NCBI GenBank assembly: GCA_963513935.1
Contig: OY740765.1
Location: forward strand, 70,342,253-70,406,252
Direction: 5' to 3'
From: Aphrophora alni
Lineage: Eukaryota > Arthropoda > Insecta > Hemiptera > Aphrophoridae
Length of the DNA stretch: 64,000 bases
Part shown: positions 12,907 to 47,969 of the stretch, piece by piece
Numbering within the stretch: position 1 is the first letter of the stretch
Layout of the letters: every line of letters begins with the position of its first letter
The notes under the pieces: model-generated
The model's database searches: none
The model's input: only the letters and a program-made list of their open reading frames with translations
Told to the model about the DNA's origin: nothing
Position numbers and translations under genes: made by a program

Positions 12907-15077
12907 CCCTCGACCTGGTGGACGACCCGGTTTTAACAAATGACCGGGTCGCGGCATTAGTAATGGCTCACTTCACCAACTAAAAAACATGTATTTTGCC
13001 ATTCAACGTTACGCCCACTTAAAATTGTCCCATCGCAATAAATAAAATACCGTTGGAAAGCTAATGTTCTGTAGATGCATATCATGCAAAAAAAAGACCA
13101 CAAAACGTTATAAATAATATTCCACAAATTAGTGAAATTCACATATTTTTGATGCGAAACGTCAAAGTTTTACGTTAACAAGTTTTAAACAAAACATTCG
13201 TCTCGTTTGCCTATTTTTCTTATTTCCAAATTACTGTTAGTCAAATATAACCTAACACTGCTTGATAGATCGTGTCTTTCTCTTTAAAACCGTCTTTTTC
13301 AAATGTTTCCAACTAGTATAGTTTTTATTATATAAAAATTAAACCAAATCAAGAATTTTAACGCTATTTTACACGCTAAAAATTACATTTTTTGCAATTC
13401 AACTTTTATCCTAGTAGATATTATATTATCGAAATGTATTCTATACCATTGAAAAGGTAATCTTTCAATCTTTCAAAACCAGTTTTAGAAAAATTAAAGT
13501 TGCGTAAAATATAAAAACACGACTTGACTGAAGTTGATGTTCATAACGCCAGGTTGCGACAATTTGCCGCGGCAAGTTTTATATAGAAAATATCACCTAT
13601 ATGTTCATATATTTTTTCGAAATGGTAAAACTTGTCCAAATGTTACAAGTTGACAATATTATATAGTATTTTTCTTCCTCTTTCGAACTATGAAGACGAA
13701 ATCATCCCAATTTATATAGTTTACGAGTTATATCCATTCTAGGAAATGATCCTCTGAACTTTCAGACCGGTTTGCGATATTCAGTATCTAGACAGTCTTG
13801 AAGAATCCGATCTTTATTTTTATACAATCTTGTCATTTTTGATATAACTGTAAAGAGGAGGTTTCAATGTTTAACCTTGTATTTGAAACACATCTGTACA
13901 AGGAAAAATACAAAGGCTGTGGTACTTTATAAAACCAAGAATAACCTCAAATTTGTTACTTCAATCACGCAAGAATTTTGCCGATGTGGAAATTTCAAAG
14001 TGTAATAGCTTTGTGTTTTTGTAGTGGATATAAGTTTCATGAAGTGATTTTTTTATTATAATTTGTTTATACAGCTTAAAATAAATGTGTCAATGTTTGT
14101 AGAGTGTAGTGTTATGAGTGATAATTCATATTTTCGGCCTATTCTAGCCAAATCTAGTACTATTCAGGCCTAGTTCTAGATTTGCTTATGGAACTTTTAG
14201 TTTCAAGAAACGATTTATTTATTATAATATGTATATACATAATATATAAATGTATATACAACTTATAATAAATGTGTCAATGTTTGTAGAGTGTATTTAT
14301 TAGTGATATTTCATATTTTTGGTTTTTTTTTCACAGCCCTAACCTCAACGTCTAGGCTATTGTGAAGGTAGATTTTTATCATAAATGACCCATGTCTAAT
14401 GAAAATTTAAAAAATTGATTTTTTTTTTTTAGCAACTTTTATCCACAAATATATAACACATCTCTACGAATTCTTCAAAAAAATGAAAAAAAATCTTTTA
14501 TATGGTTTATGTACTGATTTCTGTGAAAATTTTCTCTCCGTTACTCTCGATTTTTTGGTATTTGACTAAAAACTCCAAATGTAATACATCTAACATTTTT
14601 TTCACTATACACCTACATTCTATGCACCTTTCTGGACATAATGATATATAGAAGTTCTGTATAAAATATATTTTACTATTTTTAATGTTTTTTGAAAAAA
14701 ATAAAGAGAAAATTCAGTTTTTACGTAAAATATTTTTTTACATTTTTAAAATGTAACAAATTTATATATTTTTTTCCCTAAATATATACACAAATAATAC
14801 ACAAAAATTGTGTATATCTTAGAAATAGGTAGTAAGCTATTGATTTTGGGTGATACAGGTTTTTCTGAAAATGAGTTAATATCATTTTTGACATCTAACA
14901 TACTTACTCCAAAACCGTTTCAAAAATTTATTTTTTTATTACATAGATAAATTCTATGTATCTTTCTGAGAAAAATGATATCTTATAAGTTAGGTTTTGT
15001 ATACAAATAATATATTTTATTAATTTTTAAACGAACGAAGAATTTTTAAGACACATTAACATGCGCCAGCTGGAGGG
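12907..15077 (+). mobile_element. TTAA-flanked ~2-kb element, copy 1 (piggyBac-like MITE family)
   Basis: Flanked by TTAA at 12903-12906 and 15078-15081. Ends CCCTCGACCTGG and CCAGCTGGAGGG are imperfect inverted repeats. The head end (left) carries a 9-bp palindrome, CGACCCGGT (12923-12931) with ACCGGGTCG (12943-12951). It is followed by the family head module (CATGTATTTTGCCATTCAAC, CGCCCACTTAAAATTGTCC). The body contains repeated blocks built on TTCTATG.A.CTTTCT and GATAT..TATAAGTT (near 14620 and 14950). There is no coding capacity. At 2.17 kb it is the longest complete copy here. Confidence 0.8.
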
Positions 15078-15081
15078 TTAA

Positions 15082-15469
15082 ACTTACATTCATACTGGTT
15101 TTTTAAAGACAAATGTGAAATTTTTCATGAACAATTATTGGATGCTGGCATACTTGCCAAGAGTTGTGTTCAGCAATTGAAAAACAGAGCAGGATACTGG
15201 TTCTGTTTTCAGTGCTAAATATAATTGTCTGCCTTCTGTTCAGATTCTGGTGGGAGATACTTAGCCCTAACAAATCTGCCGCGAAGTTGTCCCCAACAGC
15301 ATGGTGTTAAACATATTTTTGTCATCATGTACTTCAATCTCTACTCTTAAAACCTCACTGCATATCGTGTGTTCAGCCATTATTTTCAGGGGGCAAAGGA
15401 AAACTGGCTCTAAATGGCAAAAGATATCTTTAAAACATTGTTGATGGTGATCTTGACCTATCGCTATAT
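15082..15469. other. intron sequence, no recognised coding
   Basis: Composition is less AT-rich than around it, suggesting decayed transposon sequence continuous with the transposase fragment that follows, but no motif is readable here. Confidence 0.35.
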
Positions 15470-15703
15470 TTCATGAATGATGAGACATCTTTTATATAAA
15501 TAGCCATATTAATCCTCACAAAAAATCCTAACATTGACTTTGGGATCAGGTTCTATTTTAAGATTTTAAAAATTGAAGTCTGGTGTGCTGTTTTTGCAAG
15601 TCGAATTATCAACCCAATATTCTATGACACTACTGTGAACACAGAAGTTTATGTTCAAATTTGTTTAAACTGCTACTCCCAACTGACTGAAAATGAGCGA
15701 TAG
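15470..15703 (+). pseudogene. Tc1/mariner-type transposase DDE fragment
   Basis: The + strand reads FMNDETSFI with a break, and after a gap VWCAVFASRIINPIFYDTTV then EVYVQICLNCYSQLTENER and a stop. The VWCA...RII.PIF and QLTE.ER blocks are typical of the catalytic domain of insect Tc1/mariner-superfamily transposases. Frame changes and stops show it is dead. It may be the same family as the fragments at 31475-31614 (N-terminus) and 39461-39664 (C-terminus), since these domains occur together in known insect elements. Confidence 0.6.
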
Positions 15704-15780
15704 TATTAATTTTTTTTATAGTGCTACAATGTCATACTTCTAATTGATCTTTTGTCAAGGATGCACTGGTTAACTCATAC

Positions 15781-17204
15781 ATGGCTTCTACTACAAATAC
15801 TGTCAACCCGGGTTGTAAAAAGAGACAACTATCAGTATCATCCTAAGAGTTTGTTTTTGATAGGAAAAAAATGAAATTTGGACGTATGGATCCAGGGACC
15901 TGCTCCCAGATTTCTTATTGTTTGAAACAGTGTCGAGGGGTCAGATCTATCAAAGATCTCCTCCTTTGTGATTAATAAAACTGTCACTGGTGCTGCAGGT
16001 AATGTTTGTTCAATTCGAAAACTCCAAAATGGTACTTTATTGATATAGACTCTCTGTTGAAAATGAAGTTCCTTTTTGATGTAGTAAACATGTCTGTTGA
16101 ACGTCACAAAGGTTTAAATTCATCTAAAGACATTATTTCCTGCTGTGACCTCTTGAATGAGAGCATGGAGGAAATATTGAAAGAACTTGCTGAACAACAC
16201 TTTATTAATGTCAAACATATTTATACAACTGAGAATGGTGAGAGAAAACTAACCGGTTCTATTCTTCTAACCTTTAGTACTCCAAATCTTTCGTAGCGAG
16301 TGTATGCTGGTTTCTACAGTCTAACTGTTAGACCTTACATTCCAAATCCAAGGCGTTTCCGATGCCAAGGATTTGAACACGTTAGCAACACATGTTCTAA
16401 AGATGAAGTGTGTGGACAGTGTGTCATTAAAGGCCACAAAATGAAGGGTGTAATATGGAGGCATAGTGTCCAAATTATGACATCGACCATCATACACTTT
16501 TACCGAAATGCCCAAAATATAAAGTTGAGAAGGCAATTTTAGAAATAATGCTAAAGAGAGCATTTCTTTCCCGAAGCTAGGAAAGTATATAAACAAAGAA
16601 CTGCTCTACCTCCAACCATAGGTAAATCGTACGCAAATGCAACATCTGCCCCAGTCCCGAATTCATGTTCATCATGTAAGGAACTGGATGAGATGATTTG
16701 TGTACTTGCAGATCAAATAAAGCAATAAATTGCAGTACAAAGCGGTTCATCTGTTAATGTCCCATGTAGTTCTAAAGTTGATCTTCTTGCTCAATCTACC
16801 AAACCTATTGTGTCCAAAGCTAAATTTGTGCTTTCGTTACAGAAAAGCTGAAATTGCCAAAGACAACTAGATAGCTAATTAAACAAAAATTTAAATCGGT
16901 ATCCGTTCTTACAAAATCTTCGTCTTTTTTTAAAGTTCAAAATAAAAATACTACAGGCAAACCTAGTAGACCACTGAATGTAACTAAATCTCTAGATACC
17001 AAAAATAAGATAGGAGCTGGCTCTTCTAAACTTCTTCTAAAATCACCTCGGGCGTCTCCGAAGCCTTCAACACCTAACGTTTCAGTCAAAGATATTGCTA
17101 TGGAGCTTGACCCTGTGACTTCAAAAACTAAAATTAAACCACCTGATGGTTTTTCAAGTCAGGCAAGTGGTAAGAATAATGCAGGTCCAAACCCTTTTTC
17201 TTAA
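15781..17204 (+). pseudogene. Jockey-type non-LTR retrotransposon ORF1 (gag-like)
   Basis: A plausible start is ATG at 15781 (MASTTNTVNPGCKKRQLS). After a frameshift come FETVSRGSDLSKISSFVINK, a second shift, and VERHKGLNSSKDIISCCDLL, then the motif VRPYIPNPRRFRCQGFEHVS followed by a zinc-knuckle region (C...CGQC...GH). The VRPYIPNP.RCF.CQ signature is characteristic of Jockey-clade ORF1 nucleic-acid-binding proteins. The tail is Pro/Ser/Lys-rich and ends near 17204. Several frameshifts and stops disable it. ORF2 begins about 40 bp downstream, the usual arrangement. Confidence 0.8.
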
Positions 17205-17241
17205 CGAATCCATTATTATTTTTTATATCTGATCATAAAAT

Positions 17242-17511
17242 ATGACCAGAAATTTAAACTTAGATAGCGTGATACAATTGAACATTAACAGTGTGAGAAG
17301 TCACATCGAAAATCTTAAGTTTCTTGTATATAATACATCCTCTTTAATAATTCGCCTGCAAGAGACTCTTTTCCATCAACCCCACTCATTTAGTTTGAGA
17401 GGGTTTTCAGTTTTTTTGTACTGGTTTTGTCACTGCAGACTTCTAAAGGAGGAGTTGCAATACTCCTCCTCAACTCCATTTGTGGTACATCTGTGAACCT
17501 TTACACTTTAT
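17242..17511 (+). pseudogene. Jockey ORF2, 5' part of AP endonuclease domain
   Basis: Reads LDSVIQLNINSVRSHIENLK, SLIIRLQETLF and HSFSLRGFSVF, then in another frame SKGGVAILLLNSICGTSV. The LQxNINSxRSHxENL and LQET motifs are those of the APE endonuclease that opens ORF2 of Jockey-clade elements. The domain is cut at about 17508 by the TTAA element that follows and resumes at 19283. Confidence 0.8.
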
Positions 17512-19280
17512 CCGGAGATGTTAATTCTCTTCGTTTGTTTAAAAATTAATAAAAAATATTATTTTTATACAAAATTTTGAAACAGTTTTGGAGTATGTTT
17601 ACGCATCAAAAAATGAATGTAACATTTTTTTAGAAAAACCTGAATCATCCACAATAAAAATTTTATTACTGTGTTTTCAAGATATTCAAAAGTTTTTTAA
17701 TATAATTTTGAATGATAGTTGATAAAAAAAAAATTAATTTGTTACATTTTCAAAAAAAAAAAGATTTTACGGAAAAAGGTAAAAAGTTAGACCTCATTTG
17801 AAAAAATCACCAACAATAGTAATATTATGCAAAACACAACTACAAATTATCATTTCCTTCAGAAATGTGCATAGAATTTAGTAGTGAAAAAAAATTTAGA
17901 TCTAAAAATTTTGAGTTATTAGGTCAGGAATCAAAAAATCGTCCGCTGGCTGAGGCAAAAAGTTACTATACACCATACAAAAAAAAAAATTTGAATTTTT
18001 TCAAGTATTACTAGAGATTTGTAATATATTTGTGGATAAAAGTTGCTAAAAAGAAAAATCCATTAAAAAATTTTCATTAGACAAAATTATTTTTATATGT
18101 AAACAAATGGAAATTTGCTAAAAAGGTTAGAGCAGATATAACATAACCTATCCAATCAGCATCAGTCTGACAATAACATTCACTCAAAACAATAAATTCT
18201 ACAAACAATAATACAGATATTATAATTTGTATATGTCATTTTAGTACACAAACAAGCCTGAGTAAAACGGTAACTTGCAAGTCAAAAATAATTACCTAAA
18301 ATAACTCTAAGACGTAATGAGTGATACCAAGTGAAAGATCTAAACTTCATCTTCCAAATAGTGTAAACATCGGTTACAATATATCAATGTAAGTAATCGA
18401 TATTTCCTATTTAGTAAACTCCACCGAAAGAAAAATGAGTCTGGTACGGTTGGGTTACTACTTCGTAGAATGGATATATCTCGTAAACTATATAACATTT
18501 GATAATTTCGAATTCGTAGTTCAAAAGAGGAAGAAAAATACTATATAATATTGTCAACTTGTGGCATTTGTACAAGTATTACCATTTCGTAAAATCATAT
18601 GAACACAGAATACACATTTTTCAATATAAACGCTGTCGCGTCAAGTGAGGCGATCTAGCGGAATTGTCGGCAACTTTATCAAATTCTTGAATTTTTACTT
18701 TTAGTGACAAGGATTTTGGTATAGATGATTATGAAAGATTGAAACATCACCTTTACAATGATATATTATACATTTTGATAAAATAATATCTACTACGATA
18801 AAACTTGAATTGAAAAAATGTAATTTTTAGCGTGTAAAAATGAGTTAAATTTCTTGATTTTGTTTAATTTTTATATAATAAAAATTATAACAGATAGAAA
18901 GATTTGGAAAGCACTGTCGAAAGAGAAAGACGTGATCTATAGAACAGTGTTATGTTAGATCTGTTTGACAGAAAAATAGATTTGTGAACATCTGAGAAAG
19001 AATGGCGTCTTTTCTGTTTACAACCGCACAGTTCAAATCTTTGATATTACATATCAAAATATGCAAACTTTACCAATTTTTGGAATATTATTTATAACGT
19101 TTTGTGGTATTTTTTTTTTTGCATGATTATGTATCTATGGAACATTAGCTTTCCAACACTGTTTTATTTATTGCGGTAGGACGATTCTAAATGGGCAAAA
19201 TATTGAATTGCAAAATACGTGTTTTTGAGTCGATCAAGCATCACGCATCGACCCCGGGGGGTCGATCGCCAGATAGAGGG
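17512..19280 (-). mobile_element. TTAA-flanked ~2-kb element, copy 2, inserted in Jockey ORF2
   Basis: The right (head) end is ...AGATAGAGGG|TTAA (19281-19284). The left target site is decayed (TTAT at 17508-17511). The left sequence (ATGTTAATTCTCTTCGTTTG) matches the tail end of copy 3. The head carries ATCGACCCC-GG-GGGGTCGAT (19247-19266), a near-perfect 20-bp palindrome. The body is colinear with copies 1 and 3 on the opposite strand. It interrupts the APE domain of the Jockey element, so it is younger. Length 1.77 kb. Confidence 0.78.
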
Positions 19281-19282
19281 TT

Positions 19283-19784
19283 AAGACCTCATTGCAAGCA
19301 GTAGCAATAACGATCACTACATCATTTAAAATGACAATTTGTTGTTTGTACTTGCCACCTAATTTCAGGTTTGTGGATGTGGAACTAATCGACCTGATCA
19401 GACAGCTGCCTACCCCATATCTTTTGGTGGGCGATTTCAATGCTCACCACTATATTTGGGGATCAAACACCAGCAGCCCTAGAAGAAACTGCGTTGACAG
19501 GATTCGATCCAATTTAGATTTTATTCTGCTCAATGTTGGGTCACCAACTAATCTAGTGTCTTCTACATGTGGTTGTACAACTGTCAACTTGTCATTTTGT
19601 AGCCTATGTCTTATCACTAAATTTGAGTGGTCCGTTCTAACTGACACCTACAGTAGTGATCATGCTCCTGTTAAGTTTACATTTTCTGACTTCTCGCACT
19701 GTAACAACCACCTTCCCAGATGGATTTTGCGAAAAGCAAAATGGGAAAGTTTCATTGCTGAATTTGTATCACCTATTTATAATA
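19283..19784 (+). pseudogene. Jockey ORF2, 3' part of AP endonuclease domain
   Basis: Reads TSLQAVAITITTSFKMTICC, LYLPPN, LIRQLPTPYLLVGDFNAHHY and then WGS, SRIRSNLDF-like sequence, STCGCTTVNLSFCS and YSSDHAPVKF. The LVGDFNAHHxxWGS and SDHAPV blocks hold the catalytic Asp/Asn and His residues of the APE fold. The frame is open for about 165 codons until the pogo-type insertion at 19785. Confidence 0.88.
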
Positions 19785-20429
19785 CAGTAAAGTCTTGGTT
19801 AACCGTCACCCTTTTTATCGTCAGTTTCTGTTAACCGTCAGGACAGGGGCGGAAATAGTACACATGTAATACGTAATGATGTACCGTATATATTTAATGT
19901 GGTATGAATGTTTACAAGTTAGTATCATACTCAAATTTGATTTGAATGAATAATGCGCCATCTAAACAGTTGACCACGGCATTTCTACACAAAAATTTTA
20001 TAATGTACAGTACTGTCCCTCAATCTACTTGTAAACGTGACATTATTCACAGCACTATTGGGAGCGTGTCACTAATTCCTAGAACAGTGGCCAAACCCTC
20101 CTTTCCCTCCCACTCCTGTGTCTTAGCAAAAAAAATCATTGTTAGTTTCGTGCGTGGCATCGAGTTAGTTAGTTTAATAAATAGTTACTGTAAATAGAAA
20201 ATTTAAAGGTTTTACTAAATTTTCCCAAATAATTTTTTTTTTTTAGTTAAAAAGAAATAACAGTACAGATATTCTGTGTTATAAACACTGTTCAAAACTT
20301 AATAGTACAGTATTTTTATTGATCGCCGATGACTTCCAGAAGTCTGGGAAGTCTATTTATGTTATCCGTCTATTCTCTCATCCGTCACCCCACCGGTCCC
20401 GAGAATGATGGTTAATCGAGACTCTACTG
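19785..20429. mobile_element. pogo/Tigger-type nonautonomous element, inserted in Jockey ORF2
   Basis: Flanked by TA on both sides (19783-19784, 20430-20431). Ends CAGTAAAGTCTTGGTTAACC and GGTTAATCGAGACTCTACTG are imperfect inverted repeats. The CAGT(A/C)...ACTG termini with TA duplication fit pogo/Tigger elements. There is no transposase coding. At 645 bp it is a deletion derivative. It lies inside the same Jockey ORF2 as copy 2 and is thus also younger than the Jockey insertion. Confidence 0.8.
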
Positions 20430-20431
20430 TA

Positions 20432-21250
20432 ATAACATTCCTATGAATGAAGCAGTATAATCTTTTACGCAAGCACTTTGTACAGCAGCGGACAACAATG
20501 TTCTGAAATCGTTGACGAGACCATTATTTACACCAGTTCCGTGGTGGAATGACAAATGTAGTGACGCTCTCTGTTTACGTCGTAAAGTGCTAAGGAAGTT
20601 TAATCGAAGACCTACTTGTGAAAAGACAAAGCACGTTGAGTGTTTAGGTAGAGTGGAAAAGAATCATGAGCTCAGTACATTAGCACAATATCATGAACCA
20701 CACCCTCATCAATGGTTTGGAAGAAATTATGTTCTGTTTGTGGTCATCTTGCTTCTGCTCCCTTATTGGAACTTAAGCAGGAGGATGGAGTTTTGACTAC
20801 AAATAACATTTTCTACATATGAAATTTCTATGGGTTCCGATTCAGCATCGCTTGATGAATTGGAAACTGTATGGGTACATGCCTATACCATTCCGATTGA
20901 AGAATCACACCTGCACGATATCTATGGAACCAAGTATAGTGACTACGAATGGAGTATCTATACGGACATTGACTGCCAAACAGTTGGACAACTGTCAACA
21001 ACATAAGACTGGATTGTGTTCTCTGTCACAGCAGAGTGAATCTGGGACATTATCACGAGGTTGTGTGGGCCAGCTGATTGCAGGTGGTGATATATATAGT
21101 ATAGCAGCGAAGTGTACTTTTCACTGTGTCCTCAGAGACAAGAAGCTTCTGATTACAGATATCATGTGCGATACTTTTACCACCACATCCCACTCCTTGC
21201 ACTCACCTGAGGTGTGGAGGCGCGAACTAAATTTCAATTCCGTATGACAT
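20432..21250 (+). pseudogene. Jockey ORF2, post-endonuclease fragment
   Basis: Resumes with FTQALCTAADNN, TRPLFTPVPWWNDKCSDALC and LRRKVLRKFNRRPT. PVPWWN.KC and the Arg-rich stretch are the linker between endonuclease and reverse transcriptase in Jockey elements. After about 20650 the translation becomes unreadable, the RT catalytic domain (FxDD) is not seen, and only ambiguous downstream pieces remain to about 21250. RT is therefore deleted or decayed. Confidence 0.7.
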
Positions 21251-21741
21251 TCTAGGCACGGTTGAAATTACTTTGCCCTGTCATTGTTCCATCTACAAAA
21301 ACGAACATATACTCGCTTATAGACATTTACCATATGATAGCAGGGCATCCTTGGATCCTACCATGTGTCATATTGTACCTATTTCCTGAACTACGCTCAA
21401 TTCCTTGATTGTCAGACCTTTTTCACATCACAATCCTCCTAAATTTTTAAATATCTCCCACATCCTGCAGAATATTGGTCTCTCTCAACTCCTGTATTAT
21501 TTATTCACAACAGTATTTTGGGAGATGATCTAAATTTTAACAATGGGTCCATTTTTATATATTAACAAAATGTAAGATTACAGCTTCATAACATCCCATA
21601 TACAAATTATACTTGTCTATATCACATATATGATAGTTAATTTAAAAAATTTAAAAAAATAAATTTGGTATTAGAGAAGAAGTTATGATGTTTTTAACAT
21701 GCACCTTTTTTACAGAAAAGTCTCTCTTCTGCTTCCACAAT

Positions 21742-28586: not shown

Positions 28587-28590
28587 TTAA

Positions 28591-30321
28591 CCCTCCAACT
28601 GGCAATGTTAATTGTCTTGAAAATTCTTCGTTTGTTAAAAAATTAATTAAATATATTATTTCTATACAAAACCTAACTTATAAGATATCATTTTTCTCAG
28701 AAAGATGCATAGAATCCATCTATGCAATAAAAAAAAATTTTTTTGAAACGGTTTTGGAGTAAGTATGTTACATGTCAAAAACGAAGTTACCAATTTTCAG
28801 GAAAAACCTGTATATTCCAAAATCAATAGCTTACTACCTTTTTCTAAGATATACAAAAGTTATGTGTAATATTTTTGAATATATTTAAGGGGAAAAAAAT
28901 AAAATTTGTTATGTTATCAAAAAAACAAAAAATAGTTTACGAAAAAACGTAAAATGATAATTTTTTTTTTCAAAAAATCACTAAAAATAGTAATATTTAT
29001 CTTATACAAAAGTTCTATATCTCATTATGTTCAGAAAGGTGCATAGAATGTAGGTGTGTAGTGAAAAAAAAAAAGTTAGATGTATCACATTTGGTGTTTT
29101 TTGGTCAAATACCAAAAAATCGAAGAGTAACGGAGCAGAAATTTCACAAAAATGGTAATGAATAACATACTAATAGATTTTTAGGATTTTTTTCAACCAT
29201 TTCTTGAGATTTGTCATATATTTGTGAATATATTTAGGGGGGAAAAATAATAATATGTTACATTTTCTAAATAAAAATACCGATTTTCCCTAAAAAGGTA
29301 ACTTTTACAAGTGAGGTTAGGTTTGTAACCTCCACAATTTAGACTCACTAGTACCAATTTGAATATAGATCAAAGACAAAACCTTTAGATTTAACTAAGA
29401 AAATATATACTTTACAAAGAATAACACACATATTCACTTTTAAAATCATATAAAACACTATATAAGGGACAATTTGCATATAGCCTAAACTAACCTTTAC
29501 CGGCCTAGGTTATCGCAAATAAGAACGTTCAAAAACCAAACTATCACTCAAAAACATAAGCTTTAGATATAAAAACACATATATTGTAACTTGTATACAC
29601 AATTTATATACAATTTGTATACACAAACCTTCAAAATAACAAAAATCTAATCCCAAAACCAATATGTGCTACGCCTAATATTATAGGTATTTACGTCACA
29701 CATTTGCTACATTTCGAGATAAAAAACAAGCCTCTTAGTAAGTTTTTGCCCTATGTCGAGTGGTACCAACTTATAGAATGGAATTTCCCCTACAACTTAG
29801 TGTAAAGAAATATAAGAAATATAATATTAGAAACCAAAGAGAAATGCAAACCTAATGCCAACCAAATTTCGTCTCGTCAAGTTTGTTCTACGTTCAAGTA
29901 GGAATATCTCTGGATCTATGAGACGCAGAAAAATTTGTAATCTATGGTTGGAAAGAGAAACATGTGATCTATAGAACAGTGTTTTAGTTGACTTCAATGA
30001 CAGATAAATAGAGTTGGAATTATATAGGGAAAAATGGCGTCGCGCTACCGAAAAGGCGCAGAGTTCAAATCTACGATATTACGCATCAAAAATATGCGAA
30101 CTTCACCAATTTTTGGAATATTATTTATAACGTTTTGTGGTATTTTTTTTGCATGATTATGCATCTACGGAACATTAGCTTTCCAACGGTATTTTATTTA
30201 TTGCGATCGGATAATTTTAAGTGGGCGTAACGTTGAATGGCAAAATACGTGATTAAAAGTTAGTGAAATCTTTTCGGAGCACGTTGGCGACCTACTGTAG
30301 GTCGCCGTGCCACTTGGAGGG
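28591..30321 (-). mobile_element. TTAA-flanked ~2-kb element, copy 3
   Basis: Intact TTAA duplications at 28587-28590 and 30322-30325. Termini CCCTCCAACTGGCA and TGCCACTTGGAGGG are 14-bp inverted repeats with one mismatch, the best-preserved ends of the family. The head (right) holds GGCGACCTAC-T-GTAGGTCGCC (30286-30306), a perfect 10-bp-arm palindrome extended by GCACG/CGTGC. It lacks coding capacity and is 1.73 kb long. Body blocks are colinear with copies 1 and 2. Confidence 0.87.
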
Positions 30322-30325
30322 TTAA

Positions 30326-35042: not shown

Positions 35043-35046
35043 TTAA

Positions 35047-37150
35047 CCCTTAAAACGCTCTTCAACTCAGGTGAGTTATAAATGTATATTCTTAAAACGT
35101 TCTTCGACTCACCTGAGTTGTAAACATCACTTTTTTCAATTCAATATTTTGCCCACTAAAAATTGCCCGATTGCACTGTAAAGGTAATGTTCCAAACTTT
35201 CATATTCATATAACCAAAAATCCATAAATCGATATAAATAATATGTAACAAATCGATAAAGTTAGTGTATTCCGTTGCTAGCCAGTAACTGTAATAAAAG
35301 ACAAAATTACATCATTCTTTGTCTAATTTTCACAAGTTCACAGTAACACAATTTTTCTTCCTCTTTCGATCTGTGATTTCCAAATTATCGTGACTCTTAT
35401 AGTTATAGAGATTTAAAAATTATACAAAATCAAGGATTTATAATACATTATATACTCACCTGAGTCGTAAACATCACTTTTTTCATTTCAACATTTTGCC
35501 TTCTCAAAAATTGTCTTATAATAATTTAGGTATCATTGTAAAACTATTGTTATAAACTTTCATACTCATATAACGAAAAGTCCATAAAACATAAGAAAAT
35601 ATATTTAATAAATCAATTTAGTTTGTTGTATTTTGCTGCTAGGGAGCAACATGTCAACATTTGTTGCAATATAACACAAATGACATATTGTATATTTTCA
35701 CAAGTCCAAATTTTTCCCCCAACTAATCCACAGTGTCATTATTTTATAGTATTTTTCTTTCCCTTTTGATCTGTGCCTTCCAAATTATCGTAGCTCTGAT
35801 AGTTATTGAGATATAATTTTTTTTTGAAATGATGACCAAGATCCTGCTTGTGCCTTCTTTTCGACACACTGAGAAAATTTCAAATATTTATTAGTAATAA
35901 TTTGATTTTTTTAAATAATCTTGGAAAGAAGAAGTTCAGATCTTTCGATTGGTACATTGCATTTCCCTTGGTACAAATATTTTATTTGGACTATACAAGC
36001 AAACTCGTCATTCCAAATGAGTTGAGGGGTCCTTTATTCTTCATCCAAATTGCCATTTCTGTTTCTGCTGCTTATGGGTGTTTCGTTCAGTTTAGTGCGT
36101 TTGAGGTTATTGTTTTGAAAGTTTGTTACTTTTTAATTTATTGTGAATTATTTATTATGTTTTGTTGATATTTATCGATACAGATTTATTTTCACAACTA
36201 TATTCTACAACTATTTTAAGTATATAAATTGTCTAAACAAATGTTTCTGTTTCTATTTATACAAGTTTGTTGGTGAGTTTTTGGTTTTTTGGAGAATTTT
36301 CTCATCCTTGATTACCTGACTCTAAAATATATCATTGTAGAAAATTTATAAATTCACAGTTCAATTCTACATAATTTCTCTAAACAATGGTACCTAACAA
36401 GTTGGGATTTGCATATAATAAATATTTTTGATAAACTTTTCAATATAGGCCTAACTTTTTTAGCTATTTTGTACTTTTTTAATAAAAATTTATTTTTGTA
36501 ATGAAAGTTTTCTAAATTTTTTGTATATTTTTTCATACTTTTATTCGCAATTACACCACAAAACTTTTGTATATCTTGAAAATAATTAGAAATTTTGTTT
36601 ATTCTATATATTTGTTTTTTGTGGCGTTTTGGCTTTGGTTACTGCTCAACATTTTGGTTCTAACATACTAACTACAAAATTTGTACTTCCAACTTTTTTT
36701 ATTACATACATAAATTCTACTCACCTACCTCTAACAATTAATGTATTACAAGTTGAATTTTGGAGAAAATAACTATTTTTGGTGAATTATTCAAAATAAG
36801 CCTAACTTTTTAGTAAATTCTTTTCTAAGTAAAAATTGATTTTTCAAAATGTAAATTTTATAAATTGATTTATTTTTTATTAACTATGATACAAAACTTT
36901 TGTATATCTTGAAAAAAATTACCTAAATTTTATTATGTGGTATATATAAGTTTTTTTGTAGCATTGTTACTTCACTTTTCGATTCCTGACCTACTAATTG
37001 CTAAATTTTTACATCTAATATTTTTTTCATTACATAGATGAATTCTACGCAGCTTTTAGAGAAAAATAATATATAACAAGTTGAGTTTTCCATAATATTA
37101 CGATTTTTTGTGAGTAATTGTAAATAAAATAAAAATTATATAAAAACATT
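35047..37150 (+). mobile_element. TTAA-flanked ~2-kb element family, copy 4 (right end replaced by transposase sequence)
   Basis: TTAA at 35043-35046, then CCCTTAAAACGC. The head carries AACTCA-GG-TGAGTT, and the terminal block is tandemly duplicated (CTTAAAACGYTCTTC at 35051 and 35093) with a second palindrome, ACTCACCTGAGT. A ~200-bp subterminal block is also repeated at about 35110 and 35455. The body shares the TTTTTCATTACATA.A..AATT blocks with the other copies. No tail terminus is visible. Instead the sequence runs into piggyBac-type transposase coding at 37160. Confidence 0.68.
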
Positions 37151-37159
37151 CACACTTTA

Positions 37160-37845
37160 CACAATCTATCTAAAGGGGTTTCATTTTGATTAGGGCTTTT
37201 GGAGAAATGTAGACATTGAAGAATTAATAAGAAACAATCCTGACTCATATAGTCTGGAAATACTTGTCTCGAAGAGTTGGTCTGTTTTTCAATAACCCTG
37301 AAGTCGAGTGAGAGTTACAAATCCAGTGTGAAAAATAAGGCTTGAAAATACCTTCATTTCATTTACTGAAAGATCTTTCCTGTTATTAATTCGTGAATGT
37401 TTCTTTCTTTGGGACGAAATATATAAATTTTGATCATAAGAGTTTGTCATAATTTTCCAGGAAAACCTTATCGAGAAGGATGCTAAAATAATCATAGGGC
37501 TTATTTCCTGATACAGGTAAAAAAGCAATCAATTTGTTTTTGTATAATTTAAGCATTCTCCCAAACAATTGGAGTAATGTCAATTACATTTTCAATAATA
37601 TTTACATGCTTTATTTAGATAATTATTTACACTGACATCACTGACTGTGTTGTTAATTGAATTATTTTCATCTAATAAAATATCCCTGAATTGAAGTTGT
37701 TCTTCATTATCAAAGTCTGATTCATTCACACAAAAGTCTTCACCCATTAAGCCTACCTTATCAAATATGGACATTTCATCTTCCTCTTCACTGTCACACC
37801 CAGTTTTGTTTATTTCGTTGATATAAGCATGTCTACATTTATATA
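37160..37845 (-). pseudogene. piggyBac-type transposase, N-terminal half
   Basis: The minus strand begins with an acidic region (NKTGCDSEEEDEMSIFDKVG, then ESDFDNEEQLQFRDIL), typical of piggyBac N-termini. It continues NRKDLSVNEMKVFSSLIFHT, GFVTLTRLQGY, a stop in place of the usual Trp, KTDQLFETSISRLYES and NETPLDRLCKV. This order (elkaFlglli.mG....pr.qdYW..d.lf.tpi...m....F, then DRLxK) is the start of the DDE_Tnp_1_7 domain. Coding stops abruptly at about 37160 against copy 4 body sequence, so the catalytic Asp residues are missing. This suggests, but does not prove, that the ~2-kb family derives from a piggyBac-type parent. Confidence 0.75.
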
Positions 37846-39460: not shown

Positions 39461-39664
39461 TCATTCATATTGAAACCCGTCTACTGATAAGCACTGGTAG
39501 CATCGATGAACAAAAGCCTCAAAGGTATTCCTGAACAATTCCCTTGGGATGATAAGCATTTCTTCTTCAATTAGCCTTTTTAAATCCTCATCGGTTTCTA
39601 TGTCTTGGGAGTAGACCTTTTCTTTTAGATACACCCACAGACAAAAGTCACAAACTGTTAACAC
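39461..39664 (-). pseudogene. Tc1/mariner-like transposase C-terminus
   Basis: Reads CDFCLWVYLKEKVYSQDIET, then DEDLKRLIEEEM, IPRELFRNTFEAFVHRCYQC and SVDGFQYE with a stop. The blocks CDFFLWG.LKxKVY, LK.RI.E., IP.E...+......R...CI...G..FE close many insect Tc1/mariner-superfamily transposases. The upstream side is cut by the TTAA element at 39665, and the last catalytic residue region is missing. Confidence 0.75.
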
Positions 39665-40883
39665 TGTAGGTGCCGCATGTTAATTCACTTTGTTTGTTTA
39701 AAAATTAATAAAAAATATTATTTTTATACAAAACCCAACTTATAATATATCATTTTTCTCAGAGATACGTAGAATTTATCTATGTAATAAAAAAAAATTT
39801 TTTGAAACCGTTTTCAAAATTATTTTTATATGTAAACAAATGGAAATTTGCTAAAAAGGTCAGACCAGATATAACATAACCTATCTCTATTTATAGATAG
39901 GTCTATATAAATTTATAAACATTTTGCATACATTTTAGTAAAAAATAATCAATTTATAAAATTTTCATTAGACAAAATTATTTTTATAGGCCTATGTAAA
40001 CACATGGAAATTTGCTAAAAAGGTAGACCAGATTATAACATTACCTATCTCTAGACAGCTACAATATTTGATAAATCTGACAATAACATTCACTCAAAAC
40101 GATAAATTCTACAAACAATAATACAGATATTATAATTTGAATACACAAATTATAAAAAATAAATAAAACATACCTTCAAAATAACAGAAATAATCCCAAG
40201 TCACGCACAACGCCTATCACAAACCGTCATTTTACTATACAAACAAGCCTGAGTAAAACGGTAACTTGCAAGTCAGAAATAACAACCTAAAACTAACTCT
40301 AAGACGTATTGAGTAGTACCAACAGAAAGATTACAGTATATCTACCAAATACTGTAAAGATCGGTTACAAAATATCGATGTAATAATCGATATATGTTAT
40401 TTAATAAACTGCACAGAATGAAAAATGAGTTTGGTTCAGTTTGGTTACTACTTTGGTAAAATAGATATATCTCGCGATCTATGACAGATAGAAAGATTTG
40501 GAAAGCACAGATCGAAAGAGAAAGATGTGATCTATAGAACAATATTATGGTCGATCTGTTTGATAGAAATATCGAATTGGGAATATTAGAGAAAAATGAC
40601 GTCATTTTTGTTTACAACCGCTCAGCGCAATTCTTTGACGTTACGTATCAAAAATATGCAAACTTCAGCAATTTTTGGAATATTATTTATAACATTTTGT
40701 GGTATTTTTTTCCCTATGATTATGCATCTATGGAACATTAGCTTTCCAACGGTATTTTATTTATTGCGTTAGGGCGATTCTAAATGGGCGAAATGTTGAA
40801 TTGCAAAATACGTGTTTTCAGGTCGTTAGATTAAACCATGCGTTGAGAATCATCCCGCTAGCGGGTCGAATGCCACTTGAAGC
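39665..40883 (-). mobile_element. TTAA-family element, copy 5, internally deleted
   Basis: The tail end (CATGTTAATTCACTTTGTTTG) and head end (TGCCACTTGAAGC) match copy 3, but both terminal TTAA/CCC motifs are eroded. The head palindrome is CCCGCTAGCGGG (40854-40865), perfect. Length is about 1.2 kb because part of the body is missing. It directly abuts the Tc1-like fragment, into which it may have inserted. Confidence 0.7.
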
Positions 40884-40955
40884 AATAAGCCAAGCATAGC
40901 ACAAAACCTTCTGCTCTATCGTAAACAACATGCCAAAAAGCTAGAACAACCTAGG

Positions 40956-41552
40956 TTATGTTTGTTTCCTAAGAGAAATACAGGGCATTTTTTCCTGTAG
41001 AGTAGCCAACTCAACATCCACCAACTCTACCTTGTAGGGGATTGTAATGGGATTTTTAAATTTCTTTGCAATGGCTTGCGTACCATCTGCTCCAATAATA
41101 TTGCATACACGTTTCCCCATAGGTCTCTTTCCAGTCAAAGGGAATTTTAATTTTACCTTTACGCCATGTCTTGCGGAAACAAAATCCGTAAATTTCCCAC
41201 GAAGATAACTGTTAAATGCTCCACAGATATCCTTCTTTGCTATGCTCTTCCCTTGTTCGCAATCCGAACTATCAGTTATTTTAACAAGCATTATATTGTG
41301 GCAGAATGGTTTTGTTAGCGGAGTTAGTGGTTTTAAATTAACTCCAGACAGCAACTCTTCTCCTTGCAAATAATTATTATTTCCAATATCTGTTACCAGG
41401 TTGTTGTTGTGCAGATTTTCCTCCAGAAGCCAAAGTCCAAATCGTTCGTTGGTTGGTTTAATCCTGCTACCCAAGAGCTCGGAGACCTTATACATCTTGG
41501 AAGGGGCCATGTTCACTATTCTAGCTACTAATGTAAACTGAGCTACCTCCAT
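40956..41552 (-). CDS. uncharacterised intact ORF, 198 codons (ORF198)
   Basis: I do not recognise this protein. It is the only long uninterrupted frame in the intronic DNA (198 codons in ~70% AT sequence) and is less AT-rich than its flanks. ATG at 41552 has a weak context. The in-frame ATG 14 codons later (AACATGGCC; MAPSKMYKVSELLGSRIK) has a strong Kozak context and may be the true start, giving 184 residues. The product is basic and mixed alpha/beta in appearance, with no signal peptide, membrane segment or Cys/His cluster. The C-terminal part is Lys-rich (GKRPMGKRVC, AIAKKFKNPITIPYKVELVD). The opening region vaguely recalls small OB-fold-like proteins of DNA elements, but that is only an impression. 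About 200 bp upstream begins a 0.6-kb minisatellite, with a CCAAT/TATA repeat beyond. A GCATGCGCA (NRF1/ewg-like) motif lies about 40 bp upstream. Confidence 0.5.
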   Translation of the reverse strand: MEVAQFTLVARIVNMAPSKMYKVSELLGSRIKPTNERFGLWLLEENLHNNNLVTDIGNNNYLQGEELLSGVNLKPLTPLTKPFCHNIMLVKITDSSDCEQGKSIAKKDICGAFNSYLRGKFTDFVSARHGVKVKLKFPLTGKRPMGKRVCNIIGADGTQAIAKKFKNPITIPYKVELVDVELATLQEKMPCISLRKQT

Positions 41553-41747
41553 CTAATCTCCTTTCTTAAATAGTTAATCGCAAGTAATATGCATGCGCAG
41601 TACACATTGTTACGCACTGTTGTGCAATCCGGTTGACCCAGACCAGTCAGAACCTGTCTGTATAATCTAAACACACCTTCCTGTGATCTTGAAATGGTAG
41701 CCGAAATGAGGTAGCCGAAAGCAATGCGACCCCTCTTTTTATCTATT

Positions 41748-42330
41748 TGAGCCTGTGGGTTGGGTAAGTACTATGATCTTACAGCAATCGCTCGTTAGCT
41801 GGATGTACACTTTTTTGGATTGGGTAAGTACTATGATGAGAATTCAGATCCCTTCTCACCAAGTTGGGTGAGTACCATGATGGCCGATCTACCTTGATTT
41901 TGGGTTTGGTAAGTACTTAGCAATCCCGAGATAGCATAACTGTATATACACATTTTTTTTGGGTTGGGTATGTATTATAACGCTTAGGTTTGTTGGCGGA
42001 TCCACATTGGGTTTGGTAAAATATTTGGCAATCCCGAAATCGCATAGCTGGATATGCACTTTTTAGGTTAGGTAAGTGTTATAATGGTTAGGTCGGATCT
42101 CTTCTGACCAAGTTGGGTGAGTTACTTGATCAACAGATTTACCTTGATTTTGGGTTGGGTAAGTAATTGACATTCCTGAGATAGAGGGACTTACACTTTT
42201 TTTTGGGTTGGGTAAGTACTATAATGGTGTGTCTGATGGCGGATTTACCTTGGGTTGGGTAAGTACTTGAAAATATCAAGATAGCATAGCTGGATTACAC
42301 TTTTTGGGGTTGGGTAAGTACTATAATGGT
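41748..42330 (+). repeat. GGTTGGGTAAGTACT minisatellite (splice-donor-like array)
   Basis: About twelve degenerate copies of GGTTGGGTAAGTACTATAAT separated by two or three alternating spacers (GATAGCATAGCTGGAT..ACACTTTTT and GATCTACCTTGATTTT). Eight GTAAGT and two GTGAGT hexamers occur, on the + (sense) strand of the myosin-V intron. One segment reads TTTTAGGTTAGGTAAG, resembling the insect telomere unit TTAGG. Confidence 0.85.
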
Positions 42331-42984
42331 TAGGTCCTAATGTTTAATCACTCTAATGTTATACTAAAATCGTCTAGGGGTTGTGCTACTCTGACTTGGC
42401 AAAATAAACAAATTTTAAGTAACTCCTGTGCACTTGAGTAGTAAAAGCTAATAAGCTGAGCCTGAACGACAATTTTCCCGGTCTCTCTGCCTTACAAGCG
42501 CTTAACTAAATCCTCCATGAGCTTAGCCTTGTAGAATAGCTCGGGTGGTATAATTTAGGTTTAAAAAAACATACCAGTAGTCTAAACAATTATTCACTGA
42601 CGAAGCAATAAACCTAGGTTGAGATGTCTGACAAAATGTTGGATAGCAGGAGGTAACGGTTTTAAGTTTGGGTAGTGTAAAACAGTTTGGTTGAAGATTC
42701 TGTCATGAATTTCACGACCCTAGTGACAAAGATGGCGGGCTAAAGTCGTTGCATCGTACGCTGAAAAAAATTAGGTTGCTGTCTGCCTATACTGAAAACT
42801 GGATGGCAACGGCTAGGGTTCAAGTCGCTACATTTTATATTGAAAACAAGATAGTGGACGGTTGGAACGCAAGTTGTTGTATATTAGTTGAAAAACAAGG
42901 CTGGCGGTTATGAACAAGTCGGTCTACCAAAAGCCCCGGATGGGTAGGTCACAAGTCGGTGCAATTGAAGTGACAAAATGAAGC
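42331..42984. other. intron sequence between two minisatellites
   Basis: Less AT-rich than the average intron here. No motif recognised. Confidence 0.4.
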
Positions 42985-43200
42985 ATTCTGATTGGACGAG
43001 AAGCAGCGGTTCAGTTGAAGTTATAAAATGGAGCATTCTGATTGGATGAGAAGCGGTGGTGCAGTTGAAATTATAAAATGGAGCATTCTGATTGGACGAG
43101 AAGCGGTGGTGCAGTTGAAGTTATAAATGGAGCATTCTGATTGGACGAGAATCGGTCACGTGACCAAATGGACGATTCTGATTGGTCGAGAATAACTCCA
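42985..43200. repeat. 50-bp minisatellite with CCAAT and TATA-like boxes
   Basis: ATTCTGATTGG recurs at 42985, 43035, 43085, 43134 and 43175 (periods 50, 50, 49, 41). Each full unit holds CTGATTGGACGAGAAGC, GGTGGTGCAGTTGAA and TTATAAAATGGAGC. On the minus strand the first block is CCAATCAGAAT, a CCAAT box in forward orientation. On the + strand TATAAAATGG resembles a TATA box. The last unit contains TCACGTGA, an E-box palindrome. Confidence 0.85.
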
Positions 43201-44859
43201 TAAGAGCCTATGTTACTGCCTAATCCCTGGTATGTCTACTTAAAAAGATTGCTTGAATTTTTGTTTAATTAAAAATAATAGCATATCAAATTGAAATCTT
43301 ATTTTAAATTTGAAATCCACATACTTATCATATGTTTCCAGGTTGCAACTAAGGTGAAATATAGTGTGTTACGAAAAGTATTCTGAAGAACGTATTCCCG
43401 AGTGAATGAAAAAATTTCAAAATTACTCTTGGTCTCCCTGAACAAAAAGGGAATAATTTAAATATAATAACTGGAAGGATTTAACAAATAGAGGGATACC
43501 AGCAGTTTGAGGAAACTCAAACTGTTGAAGGAATTGAACAATCCAGGCCAGAAAAAAGAAGCCGAAACTTCCAATGGATTGTGCAATTCATTCTGTATTC
43601 GTGTGAACAGATCCCTGTAATAACAAATTACAAGGTCTGGGATTTGTGCGTGTTAAAAAGAAAAAAGGGGGGCGTGTACAATCCAACTTAGAAAACAGAG
43701 CTGAGTTTTCTCGTTGTAGTACCTTTATTATGAATGAAATCTGTGATGTTTCAAAATTCATTGATTATTTGTTTGCTTTATACCAGATACAGCTACAAGT
43801 CAGATTACACTCAATGTAGGGGGCCGATATCTTCATGGCCAAGAATTTTGATTTTTACTGTCTCATTTCTTATTGGGTTTTCAGTGTTTCGCTTCTTATT
43901 AACTACAGTCCTAGTTTGTGAAACTTTGCCACTAACTCTAAAACATACTTTTGATTAACATGTTTGTCTAAATTTAGTTTAAATAATTCTGCTACTCTAG
44001 TAGCACATTGTTGCGTCCATAAAAAAAATGCAATTACTACAACCTTTGCTGCAAAATGAGCAAACTATTATTTTGAAAAAAAATTACAAACCACACATTC
44101 ACATGTTACTTCACAAACACTATTCGATACAACCAAGTTGGCCTGTGAATAAAGTTAGTAAAATCATCTTATAGTCTAGAAAGTGTGTATCAATCATTAT
44201 TTTAGATTTATGATAAATCGCACAGAAAATTTAAAATATATTTTTAGCAAAACAATTGTATTAGAGCTTTAGAATGTAATTTTTCTACAATTAGTCCAAA
44301 TTGGAAAAAAAAGTCTCTGTTAAAATAAGATTTTAACAATCTTTATAAAGTGATGTGTCGCTCGACCTCATTACCATTTTAAATTGTATGGGTTGGTTTC
44401 ATTACTGTTTAGAGGTTGAAGTGGCTTTGTATAAAGTAAGAAATACAATTTATGGTTCCATGCTATTTTTGAATAATTTATGTTAAATATAATAATAAGT
44501 TTTAGTTTTTTTATAGGCCACCTGGCATATACATAGAACACTAATGAGTTCATGTACTATCTCCTACATAAGTGCGGTGTATACCGATATACACATTTTT
44601 AGACCATCCCTTCTCTTCTTCATATTTCTTTGTCTTCTTGTATAGTATGACTTTTCATACTTGACAATGTTTACTGAATATATATTTTTATGATTTAATG
44701 TGTTTTCAATGAAATTTTGAAATTTATTTTTTTTTAGTTTCACACAATGATAAATGAATTTTAATTATGTTAATGAAAATCTTGGTTTTCATCTTTAAAA
44801 ATAATTAATTTATGTATTTTTACTTATTAAATACATTTTAAAAATACAAATTTCTTCAG
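43201..44859. other. intron sequence with one tight hairpin at 43503-43524
   Basis: CAGTTTGAG-GAAA-CTCAAACTG is a perfect 9-bp stem with a GAAA tetraloop. A G-run lies at about 43667. Otherwise unassigned. Acceptor TTTCTTCAG at 44851-44859. Confidence 0.5.
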
Positions 44860-45058
44860 CTCAATTCCAAAAACAAGAAGAAGAGTTAGTGCGACGTAGA
44901 GAAGAGTGTGTTCAACTACGTGGAGTTCTTGCTAATCGCACAACAGGACTGAAAAATGTTGCTTCAACAAATTATTCATCAGAAGATTTTGATATTGCTT
45001 TAATAAATGAAGATGGTGAATTGGTTTTAGCACTTGAAGCACAAAAGAAAACTAACAG
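44860..45058 (+). CDS. didum: myosin-V exon F: distal coiled coil
   Basis: Acceptor TTCTTCAG|CTC and donor AACAG|GTAAAA. Reads QFQKQEEELVRRREECVQLR, GVLANRTTGLKNVASTNY, then EDFDIALINEDGELVLALEA, QKKTNR. It matches the vertebrate order EEL..R+EEV..LR..L, then GE...AY..LKETNR. The final AG combines with the first G of exon G to give Arg (TNR|QL), so frame and family alignment both support the junction. Confidence 0.92.
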
Positions 45059-46197
45059 GTAAAAGTATATACCATTTATACTTATGTTAAATAGAAATTA
45101 ACATTTAATAGGAATGGACAGTACTTGATTAATTAGCTTTTCAGGATTAATTTGGGAAATTTTTTCCTACCTATTTGATCAGGATTTTTTTTTTTTGTCA
45201 TATTTTTAAGGCAGTATCTTTTTCTTTTAGGACAGTGTGGTAGATTATTAGAATGATTAGATGCTAAACTATATCACTTGTCTATTAAACTCTGCTGTTT
45301 TGTATAATGTTTCACATTTTTGAGCTTATTGTTTTCATAGTCTAAATCAAAATAAAGTAGAAATTGTCTAATAATTGCCAATTGTGACGTCAGTAACCAG
45401 TAGGTAATCCTGTTTGTGGTTGAGAGATGTTCATCTGCCATTACATCAGCTTATTGGCTAAATATTGAACTTTGGATTGAAAGCTTATACGGAACAAGAT
45501 GTGAGATATTGAAAACTATATATATTAATCATATAATAGATTATTTCTATTAAAATGGTCAAGAACATGAGTCTAATCATAAGAATATTTTAGGGTTAAG
45601 AGTTTAAATATAAAATAAATAATATGGTCCATCTTGACAACCTTGTTCAAGTTATAGAAAAGAGATCTGACAACACTGTTCAGACTAAACCCTTTATATT
45701 GCTTCTGTCAAGTGAGGTAAAAAGCTGCTAGATCAAAAAATCCAAATGATGTCATCGTTGATAAAATAATAAAATTTTCACCTTGAAGAGAGGCAAGGCA
45801 AAAGACACTTCTCGAGAAAACTCCTACCAATGCGTACTGCCTGAGGTTAAAGCAGATTATCGCATGGTTGAGAGTAGATTATTTTGAAAACTTAGGATAA
45901 TAACAAAAGTTATTATTCTACAAGAATATCTTACTTCTTACTTCTTAGTACGGGCGTCCAGCATCAATCGTAGCCGATGGCCCGATGTCCAATGTACGCA
46001 GCACAAGCAAGCTGCCAAGAATATCAAAGTATAGTATTTATTAACTTAAAATAACCTCAAACTCAGAACATTAAACTGTATTAAAAGTGATAAATATGTG
46101 TATGGTATAGAACACACTAAGTTATAATAAACCTTCCAAATGAAAAATTTATTAGAGGAAATATTTCATTCAAATTTAGAAGCATTAAAAAAAGAAT
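45059..46197. other. intron with a small non-LTR 3' fragment at 45945-46010
   Basis: Near 45285 is one isolated unit of the minisatellite found at 50305 (TTGTCTATTAAACTCTGCTG, TTTTGT). The stretch 45945-46010 (TTACTTCTTAGTACGGGCG, CCGATGTCCAATGTACGCAG) resembles 56209-56290, itself the end of a non-LTR ORF2 on the minus strand. Confidence 0.5.
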
Positions 46198-46201
46198 TTA
46201 A

Positions 46202-47915
46202 CCCTCACACCACCTTTTGACATAAAAGTGTCAAAGAGTGACACACTCTGTCTGTATTTGACACAAAAACATTTTTCTTAAATTCAACATTTCACCCACT
46301 AAGAATCATCCTACCACAATAAATTTAATACCGTTATATAGGTAATGTTCCAAAGATGCATAGCCATGTAAAAAAATTACCATAAAATGTTATAAATAAT
46401 ATGTAATTAATTGGTGAAGTGTGTGTATTTCGCAGCTTCACAGCAAACTAGTTACATAGCAACTGTGCAGTTGTGAAACACAAATTTACATCATTCTTTG
46501 TCTAATTTTCTCAAATCCATATTTCTGTCTAACAAATCTACAGTAAAACACTGTTCTATAGATCAATTCTTCATCTTTTGATCTGTGCTTTCCAAATCTT
46601 TCCAACTGTTAAAGTTTTTAATCTATAAAATATAACAAAAACAAGATGTTTAATAAGTTTTTATACACTAAAAATCACATTTTTTCAATTCAACCTTAAG
46701 CCTAGTAAATATTATTACAACGAAATGTGTAATATACCATTGCAAAGGTAATGTTCTAATTTTTCATAATCATGAAATAAAAAATCCTTATCATTAAAGA
46801 TAATAATTCAAGAATTCGAGAATTTTTTTTTTGTTTTTCCCCGAGAGTGTAGCATGTCACGGAACGTCGCAAAACAAGAATATATTAACCTCCTTGTTCA
46901 TATATTTTTTGTAAATGTTAATACTCATTCAAATACCACAAGTTGACAATATTTTTATAGTATTTTTCTTCCTTTTACGAACTATATATTCGAAATTAAC
47001 ATAGCTCTGATAGTTTACGAGATATATACATTCTACGAAATGTTCTAAAAATGTACTCCTCCTGTTTGTTCTTAGTAGTACCTAACGAACCAAGAAGAAA
47101 TTTAGATCTATAAGTTGGTATAAAGCACTATGCCATAGGCCTAATATTGCTTCGGCAGTGTATAATAGAAAATAATATCCTAAGGGGAAACTTGACGAAA
47201 ATGACACACTTCTTGATCATTTTGCCTGTGAGTGAGGCTTGGGTTTGGTAAATTTATTTCTATTATTGTGAAGTTATTTTGTTATTTAGAGTGATTTATT
47301 TATTATAATTTGTTTATACAAGTTATAATAAATATGTTAGTGTTTCTAGAGTGTATTTTTTGAGTGAATTTTAATATTTTCAGTGTATTTGTTACAGGCC
47401 TAGCCTAAATGCAAAACTTTTTATTACAAAGAAATAATTTATTTTTTTTTTAAATTATTTGTTTTAAAATTTATTGCTATTACCAACATTTATGCACAAA
47501 TACTTTTCTATACCTTGAAAAAAATTAATTTATAATTTTGTACGGTGAATATAGGCTTGAATGTGGAATTTTGACTTCGATTTTTGTATGAATGTTTGAA
47601 TCCTGACATACTAACTCCAAATTTTGTACATCTATAATATTTTTCATTACACAAGTAAATTCATTGCACATTTTTGAGAAAAATGATAATAAGAAGTTGT
47701 GTTTTCCATAATATTATTATAATTTGAAAAAATCACGCCTAACTTTTTATCTGATTTCAAAAAACATATTTTTCATATTAAAATTTTATTCATTTTTTTT
47801 TTGTTTTTACCCAAATTTATTAACTTTTTATATATTAGAAAACTTTTGTATATCTTTTAAAAATATGTTATATGTTTATGTATACTTTTCTGTGAAATAT
47901 TTACTTTTTTTACAC

Positions 47916-47954
<39 letters not shown>

Positions 47955-47969
47955 AAGTTTACACTAAGG
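46202..47969 (+). mobile_element. TTAA-flanked ~2-kb element, copy 6
   Basis: TTAA at 46198-46201 and 47970-47973. Ends CCCTCACACC and ACACTAAGG are weak inverted repeats. The head palindrome is TTTGACA (46216-46222) with TGTCAAA (46229-46235). It is followed by the family head module (ATTCAACATTTCACCCACTA, AATCATCCTACC, ATACCGTTATATAGGTAATG). The body shares the other repeated family blocks. A 33-bp poly-A tract lies at 47919-47951. Length 1.77 kb. Confidence 0.72.

Follow-up and report, generated by a model that had tools for sequence, protein, structure and literature searches.

Six elements in a 64,000-nucleotide stretch of the genome of the hemipteran insect Aphrophora alni (hereafter, the window; G000:C17:70342253-70406252, from an assembly of 1.70 Gb in 388 contigs) each carry a palindrome just inside one terminus, termed here the head, the opposite terminus being the tail. 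These elements, E1 to E6, are very probably non-autonomous members of the piggyBac superfamily, that is, miniature inverted-repeat transposable elements (MITEs), in which the head palindrome serves as an address for the dimerized cysteine-rich domains (CRDs) of a transposase, differs between families, and is kept as a protein-binding site rather than as a hairpin. The palindromes are real and belong to subfamilies rather than to single copies. They have a common axis, covary between subfamilies, fall into two spacing classes and are confined to one end of the element, and autonomous piggyBac-like families of the same genome display the same architecture. The original prediction, made from the window alone, had placed all six palindromes correctly and had taken them for copy-specific identities inside one terminus of a single family.

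The genome-wide distribution of the heads leads to a different view of what the palindromes mark. With up to three mismatches, the head module was found 3459+3458 times (92+100 in a backward-read control); intact heads combining TTAACCCT with the module numbered 475+447 = 922 (control, 0+0), and those combining TTAACCCT with CGACC..GGTCG numbered 741+758 = 1,499 (control, 1+0). Recurrence was examined in 20 heads, 40 copies of 2.5 kb and, from each of two head searches, the first 100 heads listed (all on contig C1), for the palindrome types of E1, E2, E3 and E5, those of E4 and E6 falling outside that search. All four types recur among the sampled heads, so that copy-specific identity is rejected in favor of subfamilies. 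The flanks, which had been described as conserved, are less constant than claimed because the terminal repeat, too, varies from subfamily to subfamily.

The symmetry of the heads is tied to a fixed position, counted throughout from the first base after TTAA. In the listed set with TTAACCCT and the module, at least eight of nine pairs form in 50 of the 100 heads, versus 2.9% of 2000 mononucleotide shuffles, and 47 of these 50 are centered at bp 24-25.5; a palindrome is thus not a feature of every copy. When nine pairs were scored in the same 100 heads without choosing the axis, the mean paired fraction peaked at axis 25.5 with 0.507, none of the other 58 axes exceeding 0.342, with the reservation that the heads were selected for intact TTAA, TTAACCCT and module, so that decayed copies are under-represented. 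The tails differ: no palindrome was seen in 19 MITE tails, where the paired fraction at axis 25.5 (0.36) forms no peak and lies inside the 0.22-0.47 range of the values listed. The tail pattern matched 18 of the 40 loci, one of which (L032) was excluded because GGGTTAA was missing from its match, which fell at the very end of the stretch; the 17 fetched tails have TTAA, slightly decayed in two (L053, with TCAA, and L041, with a changed terminal inverted repeat).

For the analysis of covariation, 134 heads (the 100 listed, 31 of the 40 long loci, and E1-E3) yielded 115 distinct heads, grouped in 26 clusters, 15 of which hold at least two members in the one clustering made. Not all of these heads are palindromic: 32 of the 115 are without one recognizable core and were excluded, and cluster 9, with 10 heads, is asymmetric. 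Both cores (GACC, GTCC or AACC on the left; GGTC, GGAC or GGTT on the right) are present in 83 heads, in 80 of which the left core begins at bp 17-18. Across 21 cluster consensuses, 88 of 147 non-core positions match their own partner arm, against 48.1 +/- 5.6 when the right arms are permuted (p = 1/20001, an optimistic value because the clusters are partly related). Position by position, the own and cross matches out of 21 are 5 and 5.6 at -4, 13 and 6.8 at -3, 11 and 5.1 at -2, 14 and 11.6 at -1, 13 and 6.8 at +1, 15 and 5.0 at +2, and 17 and 5.3 at +3; the symmetry thus spans -3 to +3 around the GACC core and is absent at -4. The prediction that the arms change together holds between subfamilies in this sense, but mostly not within them: among 463 cells from 55 copies in eight clusters, 403 are unchanged and 55 show a change on one side only, against four two-sided changes that keep the pairing and one that does not. 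Within subfamilies, pairing is mostly lost one arm at a time, and it is chiefly from one subfamily to another that the arms covary.

The distance between the half-sites is bimodal. In the 100 listed heads with CGACC and GGTCG, the two are separated by 7-9 bp in 60 and by 17-20 bp in 40, and the spacings of 2-6, 10-16 and 21-24, which the search pattern allowed, do not occur at all. In the 83-head covariation set, 64 heads are spaced at 6-9, 17 at 17-21 (seven of these belonging to the asymmetric cluster 9) and two at 13 and 15. The two modes lie about one turn of B-DNA apart, which suggests a helical rule, one that is unproven, since each mode draws on few independent subfamilies. In a tree of element bodies compared with palindrome type, the long-spacer types mostly group, with W_E3, L042 and L052 among them; the tree has no support values, and nothing here is built on it.

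Autonomous elements of the same genome provide a second line of evidence. The PF13843 profile gave 116 scored matches among 12606 candidates, the best at 1.8e-99, and the scored transposase open reading frames (ORFs) are 378-731 aa long, mostly without internal stops. Two of the transposases match those of the solved piggyBat (E 7.6e-58 and 6.6e-69) and piggyBac (4.8e-36 and 1.1e-35) structures, piggyBat being the best match among solved structures. Cysteine-rich C-termini are present in 11 of the 12 families sampled, a set that does not include F528 and F549 and in which 4 aa were available for F503, and zf-Tnp_2 scored above the cut-off in one of three proteins scanned. Among 15 autonomous families examined, at least one end was placed in 12, mostly by comparison of copies; no end was placed in F490, F575 and F554, and one end was resolved in F503, F601 and F731 (the 5' ends of F601 and F731 being unplaced and the 3' end of F503 unclear). 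Nine of the 12 end-resolved families have a palindrome of their own at axis 24.5-25.5, and all nine palindromes differ from one another: in eight families (F598, F544, F564, F531, F610, F528, F549 and F667), the arms are perfect over 6-11 bp and the axis is 24.5 or 25.5, and F632 has an imperfect palindrome at axis 25.0, with eight of 10 pairs, that the run measure did not pick up. In each of the nine, the stated axis ranks first among 39 axes, with a tie in F531, and pairing of a family's own arms reaches 77 of 90, against 0.40 across families, which none of 20000 permutations equalled.

In the autonomous families, too, the palindrome is one-ended. Seven opposite ends (those of F528 and F549 not among them) have no such palindrome, the longest arm being 5 bp, and the palindromic end is on the 5' side of the ORF in seven families and on its 3' side in F598 and F667. 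Half-sites lie further in at the opposite ends of F610 and F667, and the palindrome further in at the right end of F610 resembles the situation in piggyBac itself, whose right end has its palindrome further in. ATGTTAA at about bp 16-17 is common to MITE tails and to the non-palindromic end of F598 (L063-L067, L070, L072) and may be a right-end motif.

These features are most readily accommodated if the head palindrome is gripped as a two-fold site by the paired C-terminal CRDs of a transposase dimer, as happens at bp 17-33 in the left end of piggyBac. With its axis at about bp 25, the head palindrome agrees in position with the CRD-dimer palindromes of piggyBac and piggyBat, the long-spacer class of E1 lying at 31. 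Given that one kind of CRD would read both half-sites, both halves must change alike in a subfamily that adapts to a new CRD specificity, and covariation between subfamilies would follow; with many piggyBac-like transposase families in the genome, the subfamilies would carry different addresses. Families that differ in their CRDs would then differ in their symmetric addresses as well, with hardly any shift in distance from the tip, and mobilization by another transposase would become possible for a MITE subfamily that acquired a new address. Binding of the palindromes by CRDs is predicted here from architecture, and changing specificity is proposed as what drives the diversity. Of the possibilities raised by the original prediction, a subfamily-specific transposase site is the one that agrees with the common axis, the one-endedness and the palindromes of the autonomous families. 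The MITEs appear to have no transposase gene of their own, and none is required of them; six transposases had no tblastn match at E 0.01 in the 40 fetched elements.

Several observations weigh against a CRD-dimer address. No autonomous element with GACC..GGTC ends is present among the 12 end-resolved families, drawn from a search in which 116 of 12606 candidates were scored. F503, F601 and F731 have no palindrome at the expected axis, each judged from one end, that of F503 being uncertain. The 6-bp arms of F598 and F667 by themselves do not stand out from shuffles (144 and 133 of 2000 reach them), so that the common axis carries the argument for them, and the palindrome of F632 is imperfect. 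The long-spacer class departs from piggyBac in being centered near bp 31, and among the 21 cluster consensuses, which are not independent, 11 are single heads.

Neither does binding alone predict the variant palindrome centers of the E2 subfamily, as collected with the arms fixed and the center left free: among 24 copies, the center is AGCT in 20 and ACCT, CCCG (the window copy), CGGTCG and TGGCCA in one each. Three of the four variant centers look like whole, multi-base replacements that are self-complementary again, fully (TGGCCA) or partly; the events are few. Palindrome centers might conceivably be replaced in one step by fold-back repair, via template switching or at a hairpin tip, altering both half-sites together, a rather unlikely scenario that we raise tentatively. 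If it were true, a subfamily could switch at once to another transposase specificity, with no asymmetric and inactive form in between.

It is distinctly improbable that a mutational process as such keeps the arms alike, with template switching or fold-back repair copying one arm onto the other whatever the sequence. Template switching can create and repair hairpins in a single event (PMC8794818), the E2 centers speak for such a process, and compensated changes within subfamilies are slightly above expectation (4 observed, 0.8-2.3 expected). However, one-sided changes by far prevail within subfamilies, and arm copying would account neither for the axis at bp 24.5-25.5 that unrelated families share, nor for one-endedness, nor for the two spacing classes. 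The same ratio of 55 to four leaves regeneration of the pairing at excision, another suggestion of the original prediction, unsupported in ordinary copies; moreover, the known excision hairpins of piggyBac elements form at the transposon ends, not 25 bp inside (PMC13405395).

Selection of the hairpin or cruciform itself, in replication, transcription or excision and regardless of its sequence, is very improbable. Pairing that runs through the center in F549, F610, F564 and E3 favors it, but the GACC-like core sequence is largely conserved among the MITE subfamilies, some subfamilies pair in their outer arms only (for example, cluster 21, AACGACC/GGTCGTT, with the inner part unpaired), covariation stops at -4, the axis is fixed from the tip, and the loops form two classes about one helical turn apart; on these grounds, the notion that structure rather than sequence is selected is not supported. 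Chance palindromes in related elements have next to no probability: the arms of E4 and E5, taken singly, do lie within shuffle range (497 and 253 of 2000), but the excess of well-paired heads over shuffles, the single sharp axis, the covariation and the own-arm pairing of families lead us to reject them.

The window copies illustrate this variety. The common body and ends that had been claimed for all six elements are shared by E1, E2, E3 and E5, whereas E4 and E6 are more distant relatives. E1 (12903..15081, plus strand) runs from TTAA to TTAA with its head, TTAACCCT, at the low end and AGGGTTAA at the tail; its palindrome, CGACCCGGT-11-ACCGGGTCG (12923..12951, axis bp 31.0), is of the long-spacer class, and the type recurs elsewhere in the genome. 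E2 (17503..19284, minus strand) has its head at the high end and a decayed tail end, positioned by eye; the arms of its palindrome, ATCGACCCC-CC-GGGGTCGAT (19247..19266, axis bp 24.5), are the same in 24 genome copies. E3 (28587..30325, minus strand), also with its head at the high end, has the palindrome GGCGACCTAC-A-GTAGGTCGCC (30286..30306, axis bp 26.0), and a center of its type, TACAGTA, occurs in 26 of the 100 listed CGACC..GGTCG heads. E5 (39658..40888, minus strand, head at the high end) is decayed at both termini, with TTAT... in place of an intact TTAACCC and a tail positioned by eye; its palindrome is CCCGCT/AGCGGG (40854..40865, axis bp 25.5). E4 and E6, on the plus strand, are heads recognized from sequence, their tails not identified: E4 (35043..35125) has AACTCA-GG-TGAGTT (35064..35077, axis bp 24.5), with terminal unit and palindrome repeated at 42 bp, as counted by eye, and E6 (46198..46330) has TTTGACA-6-TGTCAAA (46216..46235, axis bp 24.5). 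TTAA is present at both termini in E1 and E3, and short terminal inverted repeats starting CCC[T] occur in heads and tails, decayed in E5 and in the E2 tail. Taken singly, the palindromes of E1, E2, E3 and E6 go beyond shuffles (reached by 3, 7, 1 and 61 of 2000, respectively) and those of E4 and E5 do not; with E1 left out, own-arm pairing of E2-E6 jointly reaches 41 of 50 cells, equalled by 189 of 20000 permutations.

Other mobile elements share the window. E2 is apparently inserted in an element without long terminal repeats (non-LTR; 17503-19834), with endonuclease-reverse transcriptase sequence after E2 at 19292-19834 and, before it, a reading frame that, judged by eye, resembles the start of a non-LTR element. 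Decayed piggyBac-like transposase fragments (37075-37399, minus strand; E 1e-8) lie about 2 kb from the E4 head. A further piggyBac-like copy of about 1 kb, absent from the original list, is bounded by TTAACCCTTCGCACGC and GCGTGGGAAGGGTTAA at 5648-6657 and encloses, at 6013-6159 on the minus strand, a remnant that aligns with the CRD end of F601's transposase (47% over 51 aa, E 4e-6). Ty3-type retroelement remnants with RNase H and integrase domains occupy 1162-2881, and a three-copy direct repeat with 50-bp spacing is present at 42958-43127.

The claim that no described family behaves in this way was too strong, given that the palindromes of piggyBac and piggyBat both have solved CRD-DNA structures, these two being the elements for which such structures are known in the literature surveyed (PMC7351741; PMC11707139). 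In piggyBac of Trichoplusia ni, which has TTAA flanks like the elements described here, the CRD dimer binds left-end bp 17-33, a 19-bp internal palindromic repeat centered near bp 25 (PMC7351741); the half-site sequences differ, and the MITEs are palindromic on one end only and include a second class one turn longer. The imperfect palindromes of piggyBat from Myotis lucifugus are likewise one-ended, being described for the left end only, where the first, at bp 19-30 (P1LE), is bound by two CRDs (PMC11707139), and its terminal motif is repeated at 44-bp intervals (PMC11707139; PMC13405395), comparable to the 42 bp of E4; unlike the MITEs, piggyBat is autonomous and has a shorter palindrome of another sequence. 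The coral CMITEs (PMC2872659) are also TTAA-flanked, piggyBac-type MITEs with a conserved interior and variable terminal repeats, for which cross-mobilization has been proposed, but they are about 100 bp long, and the text compared mentions neither palindrome nor covariation. The ends of piggyBac-like elements have been surveyed by Bouallegue et al. (cited in PMC8086355), and human piggyBac-like elements are the subject of PMC12324416. In the literature covered (titles and abstract openings, with subscription papers largely outside it), we found no report of palindromes that differ from family to family yet lie at one shared distance in many piggyBac-like families of a single genome. The nine autonomous families and, in the clustering used here, 26 clusters of MITE heads, many of them with a palindrome of their own at a near-constant distance from the tip, form a natural data set on how CRDs read DNA, which bears on why a spacing about one turn longer is allowed and on how families gain or lose cross-mobilization; mutual orthogonality is possible between families whose palindromes differ. 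The diversity of its addresses and its second spacing class make this piggyBac-like MITE family a variant that merits testing.

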